The translations under genes were made by a program, and so were the position numbers. This document shows positions 606 through 37,807 of a DNA stretch of 54,106 nucleotides, one piece after another. Source of the stretch: Acidobacteriota bacterium (GTDB lineage: Bacteria; Acidobacteriota; Thermoanaerobaculia; Multivoradales; JAHEKO01); assembly GCA_029862975.1 (NCBI GenBank), contig JAOTWP010000010.1, positions 1-54,106 of the forward strand, read 5' to 3'. The stretch's first letter is position 1. Every line of letters begins with the position of its first letter. The notes below the pieces were generated by a model that saw nothing but the letters and a program-made list of their open reading frames with translations, had not been told where the DNA came from and made no database searches.

Positions 606-874
606 AAAAGGACTTCGGGTAAGGAAAAGAGGGGCAGGTCCTCGCCTTGCCGCACCGGCCAGGTGACGCAACCTCCCTTCTACCCGATGTCCTTTCCTGA
701 ACCCGGTGACGCACGCGCCCTCCTACCCGAGGTCCCTTCCTGACCCCGGTGACGCACGCACCCTCTACCTGAGGTCCTTCCTGCATCGGGTAACGCACGC
801 ACCCTCTTACCCGATGTCTTTCCCTCGATCGGGTGACGCACGCACCCTCTTACCTGATGTCTTTTCCCGACTCT
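606..874. repeat. cluster of about 42-bp tandem repeats with TTACCYGATGTCTTTCC core
   Basis: Five imperfect units begin with GGTGACGCA or GGTAACGCA at about 662, 705, 748, 789 and 832, a period of 41-43 bases. Each contains a core like CTTACCCGATGTCTTTCC. The inverse core (AAAAGGACTTCGGGTAAGG, 606-624) stands once on the left, so the cluster can fold against it. The block fills the gap between the 3' end of the sulfatase operon and the agmatinase region. Related cores recur at 16995-17363 and inside the sulfatase-like gene. No open frame here looks coding. Confidence 0.75.
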
Positions 875-19950: not shown

Positions 19951-21618
19951 ATGCAAGTTGCCGTGAGTCGCGAAACTGAAGAGAAGACCGTCGAGAAGCT
20001 GAAGGCGCTGCGAGAGGCCTACTCCGAGCAGCTCCCGTTCAGGGTCCAGCAGATCGAGGCGCTGGCGCTCGACGTCAGACGCGAAGGGGCCAGCCAGCAG
20101 TCACTGCGGTCGCTGAAGCTGGCGATCCGCAGCCTCGCCGGGTCGAGCAAGGCCCTCGGCCTGCTGGGATTCACCGACGCCGCGCGGGATTTCGAGCTCT
20201 TCCTTGCCTCTCACGTTTCCGACTCCCATCTCGACTCGACCGAGATCGAGGAGCTGCTGGCCAGTCACGTCTGGACGCTGAAGAAAGCGTGTATGGAGAT
20301 CACGCGGCGCGAGCTGACGGACACGGCTGACCCGAGAGGCGACGACTTGGGTCCTCAGCGAGCGAGTCGCGTCCTCTATTTCCTCAGCGCCAACGACGCG
20401 GTCGCCAGGGACCTGAGCTTCGAAGTGAGCTGCTTCGGCTTTGCGCTGCGTCGCTTCCAAGAGCCGGCGAAGCTGCACCGGGCCTTGGAGCAGGCAGTCC
20501 CGGCCGCTGTGATGATCGATGCTCAGCCGTTCGCCTGGGGGCTCGAAGAGGTTCGGAGGATCGACGAGCTCCGACGGCGGTGGGAGCTCTCCCCTGCTCT
20601 TCTGTTGCTCTCCTCGCGCAGCGATCTGGAGTCGAGGATCGAGGCCGTGCGCGCGGGCGGCGACGGCTACTACGTGCATCCTCTCGAGACCAGGAAGCTC
20701 ATCGAGCGTCTGGATCGCTCGGCCCGGCATTCGGGCTCCGATCCCTACAGGGTCCTCATCGTCCATGGCGAGTATGGCAGCGGTCTCGGCCACGCGCTGA
20801 CCTTGCAGCGGGCTGGCATGTCCACGGTGATGGTCGGAGAGCCGGCCGAAGTGTGGAAGGAGCTCGTCGAGTTCAGACCGGAGGCCATCCTCATCGACTT
20901 GACCCCGAGAGAAGCGGGTGGTGACCTGATCGGTGCCGTGATTCGTCAGCAAGACGCCTATGTCAACATTCCGATTGTCTTCCTCTCGACGGATACGAGC
21001 CTCGAAGCCCAGCTCAGAGCGCTCCATGCGGAGGCCGACGATCTTCTGCTCGAGCCCGTGGACGAGAACTACCTCGTCTCGACGCTCAGCCACCACGTGC
21101 AGCGAGCCCGCGCCTTGAAGGGTTTCGTCGCGACAGATGGCCTGACCGGCCTTCTGACCCACTCCGAGTTCGTGAGACGAATGGAAGTCGAGGTCGATCG
21201 GGCGCTGAGGACCTCGGGCAATCTGTCGTACGCCATCCTCGACATAGACCACCTCAACTCCATCAACGAGACCTTCGGCCATCTGAGTGGCGACTCCGTC
21301 TTGACCAACCTCGCCCGCCTGCTCGTTCGCCGCTTGCGGCGGGCGGATCTCGTGGGTCGATGGGGCGGGGACGAGCTGGTCGTGGTGATGCCCGAAACTG
21401 ACGGCTCGAGCGCCCTGCGCGTTCTGGGCCACGTACGAGAGATGTTCGCCGGCATCCAGCATCGCTCGGCAGACGAGGAGTTCTCGCCTACCTTCAGTTG
21501 CGGTCTGGTGGCACTCGACCAGGCGAGCACGGCCGAGAGTCTTCACAAAGCAGCCCGTAGGATGCTCGCGGCGGCCCGAGTCCAGGGCCGCAACCGAGTC
21601 GTCCTCGGAACCGGCTGA
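19951..21618 (+). CDS. diguanylate cyclase with Hpt-like and two receiver-like domains
   Basis: The protein has 555 residues. Positions 1-110 form a helical Hpt-like segment (LKLAIRSLAGSSKALGLLGF), though the usual HxLKG histidine is not evident. Two receiver-like domains follow, with Asp in VMIDAQPF and in ILIDLTPRE. The C-terminal GGDEF domain has RWGGDELVVVMPE (GGDEL at 472-476). An RRAD inhibitory site lies five residues before it, so both the catalytic loop and the I-site look intact. The product would be c-di-GMP. The ATG at 19951 is chosen over GTG alternatives at 19915 and 19963. Confidence 0.88.
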   Translation: MQVAVSRETEEKTVEKLKALREAYSEQLPFRVQQIEALALDVRREGASQQSLRSLKLAIRSLAGSSKALGLLGFTDAARDFELFLASHVSDSHLDSTEIEELLASHVWTLKKACMEITRRELTDTADPRGDDLGPQRASRVLYFLSANDAVARDLSFEVSCFGFALRRFQEPAKLHRALEQAVPAAVMIDAQPFAWGLEEVRRIDELRRRWELSPALLLLSSRSDLESRIEAVRAGGDGYYVHPLETRKLIERLDRSARHSGSDPYRVLIVHGEYGSGLGHALTLQRAGMSTVMVGEPAEVWKELVEFRPEAILIDLTPREAGGDLIGAVIRQQDAYVNIPIVFLSTDTSLEAQLRALHAEADDLLLEPVDENYLVSTLSHHVQRARALKGFVATDGLTGLLTHSEFVRRMEVEVDRALRTSGNLSYAILDIDHLNSINETFGHLSGDSVLTNLARLLVRRLRRADLVGRWGGDELVVVMPETDGSSALRVLGHVREMFAGIQHRSADEEFSPTFSCGLVALDQASTAESLHKAARRMLAAARVQGRNRVVLGTG

Positions 21619-36310: not shown

Positions 36311-37480
36311 TCATAGCGTACATTCCGCGCTCTCGTTGAACTCCTGAAGCAGCCCTGCCAGGGCAAGCGCCACCGCCCGGTCGGGGTTGGTGTTCTTGCC
36401 CTTGGCCTGGAGCGCGCCGCTGCCCACGGGGTAGACCAGAAGCAGAGCTTCGGCTGCCGCCAGGTCTCCCGCCGGCGCCCCGCTGTTGAGGGTCGCGGCG
36501 ATGAAGGCGTGCGCCAGGAGAATCGAGGCGTCGCCCTTCTTCGGCGCCAGGTGCAGGATCTCGAGATAGGTCGAGCCACCACCCCAGACGGGCACGTCTC
36601 CCGGCGAGAGATTGACCCAGTCTTCGGGGTGGTTCTTCCAGAAGCCCTTGGTGCAGGTCACGACCGCCCCGCCCCCGCATTCGCAGGTCAACGGCTCGAT
36701 CTCGATCACCGACGCGAAGCCCGGAGGGTTGAATTCCCGCGACCAGAGGGCCAGCTTCGGCAGGAAATTGACCGGATCGCACTCCAAGCCCTCGTCACGG
36801 GCGCCGCCCGGCGATGCAAAGCTGGCGATGAAGGTGCCGTCGCTCTTCTTGACCTGGACGATCTGGACCGCGCCGTTGCGGCCGAGGTACAGCAGATCGC
36901 CGACGCCCACCATGACGCCGCTGATCAAGCCCAGAGTGTTGCCGGCGGCGTCCGTCGGCGTGATCGCGTTGATGAAGGTGCCGTCTGTCTGGTAGTGCTC
37001 GATCGTCGTGCTGACGTCTCCGCTGATCCACAGGGAGTCGTCGGTCCCGTCGTAGGCGATGCCGTCACGGTAGGAGCCGACGCTGATGGTCTGGCTCGTG
37101 AAGCCGAAGCTGGCCTGGCCGGTGGTCGCGTTGATCTGGTAGACGTCCACCGGGTTGCTGCCGTGGACCTGTCCCCACAGGATCATCCGCGATTCGTCCC
37201 AGGCCATCTCGTCGATGTTCAGGCCGGCGCCGCTCGCCGCGTCCACGATCGAGATCGTGTTGAGCAGCAGCCCGTTCATGTCCATGACGTACAGATTGGT
37301 GTCTCCGTTCAGGGTGTAGTAGACGTTCCCGAGGCAGTCCACGGCGACGCTCACCCCGACGCCGGTCACCGGCAGGTTCACGTTCTGGATCAGCGTCCCG
37401 GGCTGGGCCGCGGCCTGAGAGGCCACGAGGGCCATGACCACGCAGGCCACCAAGACTGTTCGGTATCCGAGATCTCTCAT
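36311..37480 (-). CDS. secreted protein with beta-propeller-like N-terminus and CTKGFWKNH domain
   Basis: The ATG at 37480 follows AAGGAGAGTCG. The protein has 389 residues and a signal peptide (VLVACVVMALVASQAAA). Repeats of the type GNVYYTLNGDTNLYVMD and IAYDGTDDSLWISGD suggest an NHL/SMP-30-like propeller (about 30-255). The C-terminal 120 residues start with CECGGGAVVTCTKGFWKNH, a cysteine-containing module found at the end of various exported bacterial proteins. A probable c-di-GMP-I riboswitch lies 60 bases upstream. It is likely extracellular; function unknown. Confidence 0.8.
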   Translation of the reverse strand: MRDLGYRTVLVACVVMALVASQAAAQPGTLIQNVNLPVTGVGVSVAVDCLGNVYYTLNGDTNLYVMDMNGLLLNTISIVDAASGAGLNIDEMAWDESRMILWGQVHGSNPVDVYQINATTGQASFGFTSQTISVGSYRDGIAYDGTDDSLWISGDVSTTIEHYQTDGTFINAITPTDAAGNTLGLISGVMVGVGDLLYLGRNGAVQIVQVKKSDGTFIASFASPGGARDEGLECDPVNFLPKLALWSREFNPPGFASVIEIEPLTCECGGGAVVTCTKGFWKNHPEDWVNLSPGDVPVWGGGSTYLEILHLAPKKGDASILLAHAFIAATLNSGAPAGDLAAAEALLLVYPVGSGALQAKGKNTNPDRAVALALAGLLQEFNESAECTL

Positions 37481-37540
37481 CGACTCTCCTTCTCCTGGGC
37501 GCGGGCCGAATTCATTTTCGGCCTCCGAACTCTCCGGCGG

Positions 37541-37640
37541 CTCGGCGGTCTTGTCGGGTCGCGGCGGGAGGGCGTCACGACCAGCGAGGACCCGTGGCTT
37601 TGCGGCGCTGGGTTTCCCCAGGTGTGCCCTTCTCGAGAGC
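37541..37640 (-). ncRNA. probable c-di-GMP-I (GEMM-I) riboswitch
   Basis: On the minus strand the order is GGGCACACC, TGGG-GAAA-CCCA hairpin, then CGCCGCAAAGCCACGGGTCC, followed about 30 bases later by GACCCG, which pairs with CGGGTC, and ACAAGACCGCCGAG. This matches the GEMM-I plan GGGCAAACC, GAAA-capped P2, GACGCAAAGCC, P3, and a GGGUUACCGA-like 3' strand. Deviations are GGCACACC for GGCAAACC and a shortened 3' strand. The element ends about 60 bases before the secreted-protein gene at 36311-37480. The rest of the 37481-37949 gap shows only the promoter at 37808. Confidence 0.65.
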
Positions 37641-37807
37641 CTATCGTTTACCTCGCGAGACCGGCCTCGGCAATACCCCAGCGGGTAGGGTCCCGAGCAG
37701 GCTGATTCTGGGAGCTCTCCGCTGTCTCTGGAAGGGAACGCGTGGGACAGGGAATTCTGGCGAAGTCCGCTCTGGGATGCAGCGCCTCGAGCCTCCTTCC
37801 TGCCGTC

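Follow-up and report, generated by a model that had tools for sequence, protein, structure and literature searches.

The c-di-GMP-I (GEMM-I) riboswitches, represented in Rfam by model RF01051, carry a set of highly conserved residues, G20, C22, A23, A25, G42, C44, G45, A47–A49 and C92, among which positions 24 and 43 are absent (PMC3764141). A GNRA loop on P2 together with an 11-nt receptor in P3 is typical of the class, although it is not demanded by the Rfam cut-off, and in the RF01051 consensus the GAAA receptor appears as CUAAg...uAuG adjoining the C59–G79 pair. In the related aptamer Cd1, ligand binding needs docking of the loop (PMC9262584). Class I elements can work as positive switches, as is the case for Vc1 of gbpA (PMC4744006).

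An earlier note had placed a GEMM-I-like element at positions 37541–37640 of the Acidobacteriota contig analysed here (the window, a stretch of 54,106 nucleotides). We compared the whole 54-kb window with all Rfam families by using cmscan, the kind of covariance-model search that the note had proposed. Nucleotides 37533–37638 of the minus strand match RF01051 across the full model (positions 1–87), reaching 45.1 bits (gathering score 35) with an E value of 1.1e-5, and no other Rfam family exceeds its cut-off anywhere in the window. The motifs that had been read from the minus strand are present, namely GGGCACACC (37629–37621), a GAAA-capped stem corresponding to P2 (37622–37607) and GCAAAGCCACGGGTCC (from 37603). 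The element was therefore located correctly, but its 3′ end was set too early: the aptamer runs past 37541 to 37533, or to 37528 when a family-specific model (R1) is used. Single-sequence folding of this copy is no better than that of shuffled sequences (z = +0.79). A ‘skipping-rope’ match just 3′ of the aptamer (17.3 bits, cut-off 36.7) was dismissed as chance.

P1 is formed by the 5′ strand UCUCG (37634–37638) and a 3′ strand (37531–37536) with one bulged base, equivalent to Vc2 position 95, both placed by alignment and pair counts. The P2 hairpin (37602–37627) carries its GAAA loop at 37616–37613 and a 3 × 3 internal loop, ACA/GCC (37625–37623 and 37606–37604), that holds the A24C and A43C changes. 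P3, placed by alignment to the Rfam model and pair counts, comprises a 5′ strand (37589–37599) and a 3′ strand (37539–37550) with a CG bulge in which G83 is kept. Two pairs are weakened in this copy, with C–C at the base of the P2 stem and A–C in place of A49–U90 in P3. The P3 strands are joined by a 38-nt extension (37551–37588) that runs from CUCGC (37588–37584) to ACAA (37554–37551). The earlier note had assigned the closing of P3 to a distal GACCCG and had described the 3′ strand as short. However, GACCCG (37560–37555) falls inside the extension, and the P3 3′ strand of the model, GACCGCCGAGC (37550–37540), is complete, because the model pairs GGGUC with GAC (37550–37548) and the remainder of P3 with CCGAGC.

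Seven RF01051 matches occur in the window genome (4.49 Mb, 309 contigs). Matches are also found in 29 of the 59 relatives searched, with strong expansion in the same family and up to 18 copies in one genome. We aligned 64 aptamers from the Thermoanaerobaculia family to which the window belongs, using an Rfam-derived structure of 23 pairs, and 90.5% of cells in this alignment pair. Two-sided changes are seen at 13 of the 23 pairs and in 103 cells, compared with 8.9 pairs and 45.4 cells (s.d. 4.6) in shuffled alignments. None of 500 shuffles reaches the observed 103 cells, and the signal is lost when pairing partners are slid by 1–3 columns. Covariation among the 64 relatives supports P1, P2 and P3 and, together with the RF01051 score, bears out the proposed class: the window element is a genuine c-di-GMP-I (GEMM-I) riboswitch, a known class.

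Several other copies deserve description in their own right. An eighth, degenerate copy in the window genome (L182, about 623–714 (+), equivalent to G000:C297:18922–19013) is found with 45 bits by the family model only, and retains the promoter box upstream and an exported-protein gene downstream. Another copy in the same genome (L007:1501–1608 (+)) exceeds the RF01051 cut-off with its pocket-adjacent G21–C46 pair swapped to C21–G46, which possibly reflects drift or a different ligand preference. In paralogues from relatives, position 20 is A (L057:2001–2113 (-), L062:4806–4916 (+) and L063:2001–2116 (-)) or C (L094:2001–2110 (-)). These likewise stand before exported-protein genes and, judged by this base, could be cGAMP switches inside the same regulon.

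The ligand pocket of the window copy is canonical. In Vc2 numbering it carries G20, G21–C46, C22–G45, A23, C24, A25, G42, C43, C44, A47–A49 and C92, and the C59–G79 pair and G83 are also kept. By alignment to Vc2, the specificity residue G20 lies at 37628, A47, which intercalates between the ligand bases, at 37601, and C92, which pairs with a ligand guanine, at 37537; A47 and C92 are invariant in all 64 aligned relatives. Because these three contact bases are canonical, the ligand is most likely c-di-GMP rather than cGAMP or a new compound.

The A-to-C change that had attracted attention in the earlier note corresponds to Vc2 position 24. Across the 64 relatives, positions 24 and 43 are both purines in 15 sequences, both pyrimidines in 43 and mixed in 6 (Fisher p ~3e-9). 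The purine–purine or pyrimidine–pyrimidine rule is thus followed in 58 of 64 sequences, and in 32 of 32 after thinning to <75% identity. Moreover, this pair ranks sixth among all column pairs by corrected mutual information, amid Watson–Crick pairs. Positions 24 and 43 therefore change together across the internal loop of P2, and the A-to-C change is half of a compensated non-canonical pair. As read from these sequence comparisons, A24C is a compensated structural swap, not the mark of a ligand variant.

A second departure from the consensus concerns the tetraloop receptor. The window copy has a GAAA loop on P2, but presents CUCGC...ACAA where the GAAA/11-nt receptor is expected. The canonical CUAAG/UAUG motif occurs in none of the 64 aligned relatives. 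Instead, the 5′ side of the receptor is exactly CUCGC in 36 of 64, with CAA on the 3′ side in most copies, and a smaller group carries CGNGA with UCCA. The P2 loops of the same relatives are GAAA (21), AAAA (17) or others such as CAAA, UAAA and GAGA. Given that docking is needed in Cd1, a replacement loop–receptor contact is plausible in the family of the window copy on structural analogy. A few genomes that carry the labels Gammaproteobacteria, Gemmatimonadales and Planctomycetota also show the CUCGC arrangement. Two loci labelled Gammaproteobacteria (L130:6767–6880 (-) and L132:3807–3919 (+)) share a near-identical P3 extension and receptor motif (CUCGCUUCCUCCG...CGAAGGACCCAA), a sequence likeness that suggests either that the element was transferred or that the subgroup is wider.

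The gene downstream (36311–37480, minus strand) begins 52 nt beyond the Rfam match and encodes a 389-aa product with a signal-peptide-like N-terminus, which agrees with the exported protein previously proposed; no protein family is matched over cut-off. Only about the last 115 residues recur in relatives, where no full-length relative was found. This C-terminal domain (CTKGFWKNHPEDW..., 36311–36660, minus strand) is found in proteins of the order that show no relationship outside it, and matches no Pfam family over cut-off. The comparison of leaders in related genomes suggested by the earlier note thus succeeds for the paired elements, which covary, but no orthologue of the regulated gene that shares this leader was found, the C-terminal domain alone recurring.

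All seven RF01051 copies of the window genome stand before exported-protein genes. The genes behind the other six encode an FG-GAP repeat protein, a DUF7450 protein, a di-haem cytochrome c peroxidase and three family-less exported proteins. Of 60 well-called genes downstream of riboswitches in the family, 49 look exported, and the figure for control ORFs is 37 of 84. The test is biased: start-codon choice favoured hydrophobic N-termini, and some riboswitch genes are present among the control loci. The previously noted diguanylate cyclase is also encoded in the window; its GGDEF domain (21130–21597) has GGDEL, preceded by five residues by an RxxD motif, and a canonical GHxxGD. The genome contains 18 GGDEF matches.

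A promoter box, CTACCCGCTGGGGTATTGC (37670–37688, minus strand), lies about 50 nt upstream of the aptamer and recurs family-wide. Its CCYN4GGGT core starts 51 to 47 nt upstream of the aptamer at 47 of 90 loci, against roughly 0.08 expected, and the full box approximates CCACCCGnnCGGGTGGYGC, with a −10-like TAANNT closer to the aptamer. In the window copy this second element is a weak TAAACG (37645–37650, minus strand), 17 nt after TTGCCG, which a sigma-70 scan did not find. The placement of the two elements would put the start of transcription at the first base of the aptamer or in its immediate vicinity. A scan of the window genome allowing up to two mismatches gave 21 matches to the box, against 27 in the control, a total at chance level; two matches are exact, one of them in a riboswitch leader, and some two-mismatch matches stand before ordinary genes. 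Since the box also precedes genes that lack a riboswitch, it is not exclusive to riboswitches and probably serves more widely as a promoter or regulator element; from its location, a class II activator site or an extended −35 element would fit. The palindrome CCACCCGnnCGGGTGG is also found at L144:1501, L153:1501 and L138:1501, and roughly one riboswitch in two has it upstream at a constant spacing.

No intrinsic terminator was detected in the window leader by a terminator scan, and U-runs occur in 6 of 82 short family leaders. These results argue against intrinsic termination and make translational control most likely; control of transcription or of mRNA stability is rather improbable. Between the aptamer and the Shine–Dalgarno region, a hairpin (GGCCGAA-AAUGAA-UUCGGCC, 37504–37523, minus strand) is favoured over shuffles at p = 0.035. 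We considered a universal post-aptamer hairpin and rejected it, as p < 0.05 is reached at just 12 of 57 loci. The Shine–Dalgarno region, AAGGAGAGT (37483–37491, minus strand), contains GGAGAGT, a repeat of the P1 3′ side (37535–37529), so that CUCUC of the P1 5′ strand can pair with either copy, at 37535–37529 or at 37489–37483.

Folding of 57 family leaders gave a mean Shine–Dalgarno accessibility of 0.33 unconstrained and 0.53 with the aptamer forced, with an increase in 35 leaders and a decrease in 5; the window copy rises just from 0.46 to 0.57. Co-adaptation with the Shine–Dalgarno sequence of the same leader was found neither for the P3 extension (p = 0.15) nor for the P1 5′ strand (p = 0.46). 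An anti-Shine–Dalgarno role for the P3 extension was likewise rejected: CCUCC is twofold enriched there (24 versus 12.2), but co-adaptation is lacking, as stated, and a reversed control target scores equally.

We consider it likely that this c-di-GMP-I riboswitch responds to c-di-GMP and regulates the exported-protein gene, probably at translation initiation. Transcription would proceed from the conserved promoter, starting at or beside the aptamer; c-di-GMP binding would stabilize P1–P3, and the stabilized helices would hold CUCUC of the P1 5′ strand off the GGAGAG of the Shine–Dalgarno region and turn translation on. Because the co-adaptation tests are negative despite the accessibility trend, an ON switch is favoured only slightly. 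The same aptamer and ligand might instead form an OFF switch, in which the bound fold, with P1 beside the hairpin and the Shine–Dalgarno region, blocks the ribosome, or translation needs the alternative fold. Such switches are known in the class, as with Cd1 (PMC4744006), and many family leaders have a very short distance between aptamer and start codon. The prediction that the Shine–Dalgarno region is less paired once the aptamer has formed, in most leaders, makes this polarity the less probable one, although it deserves serious weight.

The earlier note had also raised a variant subclass with changed ligand preference, in which the RNA would recognize cGAMP or another dinucleotide. Departures of the internal loop and receptor from the consensus could be read in this way, as could the A or C at position 20 in some relatives' paralogues. 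We nonetheless judge this suggestion very improbable: the window copy has G20, A47 and C92, position 24 lies outside the conserved and contacting residues (PMC3764141) and varies with position 43 rather than with the pocket, and the GGDEF protein of the window retains the canonical aspartate of GHxxGD. It is scarcely more credible that this copy is decaying and no longer binds its ligand well. Its 45 bits are low among its siblings, it has two mismatched pairs and a weak −10 element, and the same genome holds a clearly degenerate copy (G000:C297), yet all key residues are kept, P1 and P3 are intact, and the promoter box, Shine–Dalgarno sequence and signal-peptide gene are all in place.

Taken alone, control of this gene by a c-di-GMP-sensing riboswitch is ordinary, adding one more GEMM-I switch before a secreted protein. 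The copies may, at roughly even odds in our judgement, represent a structural subgroup of GEMM-I that has not been described before and that has expanded within a single Thermoanaerobaculia family. In this subgroup an NAAA loop and a CUCGC...CCAA receptor would replace the GAAA/11-nt contact, the P2 internal loop would alternate between A–A and C–C or C–U, and the switches, with a shared palindromic promoter element, would make up a large c-di-GMP regulon of exported proteins. In a search of papers available without subscription we found none joining Thermoanaerobaculia with a riboswitch; the one paper that names both the c-di-GMP riboswitch and Acidobacteria is a general RNA-motif survey. The class itself is known; judging by the sources searched, the structural variant shared across the family and the extent of the expansion seem not to have been described before. 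If the subgroup holds, a common riboswitch tolerates replacement of its main tertiary contact, the family offers a natural, testable set of alternative loop–receptor pairs, and direct c-di-GMP control is predicted for many exported proteins in a little-studied lineage of Acidobacteriota.

Among known systems, the cGAMP riboswitch (GEMM-Ib) of Geobacter has the same fold as the window copy, but is marked by a change at position 20 (PMC9481103, PMC9262584), to A where the window copy has G. The c-di-GMP-I-GGC model (RF03167) belongs to the same clan, and in a narrower scan the window copy scores 47.2 bits against it. Membership was rejected because this score is below the cut-off of 59 bits and because A47 of the window copy corresponds to G in the model consensus. 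The sibling L001 and several order-level copies exceed that cut-off. Vc2 and Vc1 of Vibrio cholerae (RF01051) share with the window copy the three-helix fold, the ligand-contact bases, the GAAA-capped P2 and the exported-protein gene downstream. The window copy differs from them in having C/C instead of A/A at positions 24/43, CUCGC...ACAA instead of CUAAG...UAUG in the receptor region, and a 38-nt P3 extension.
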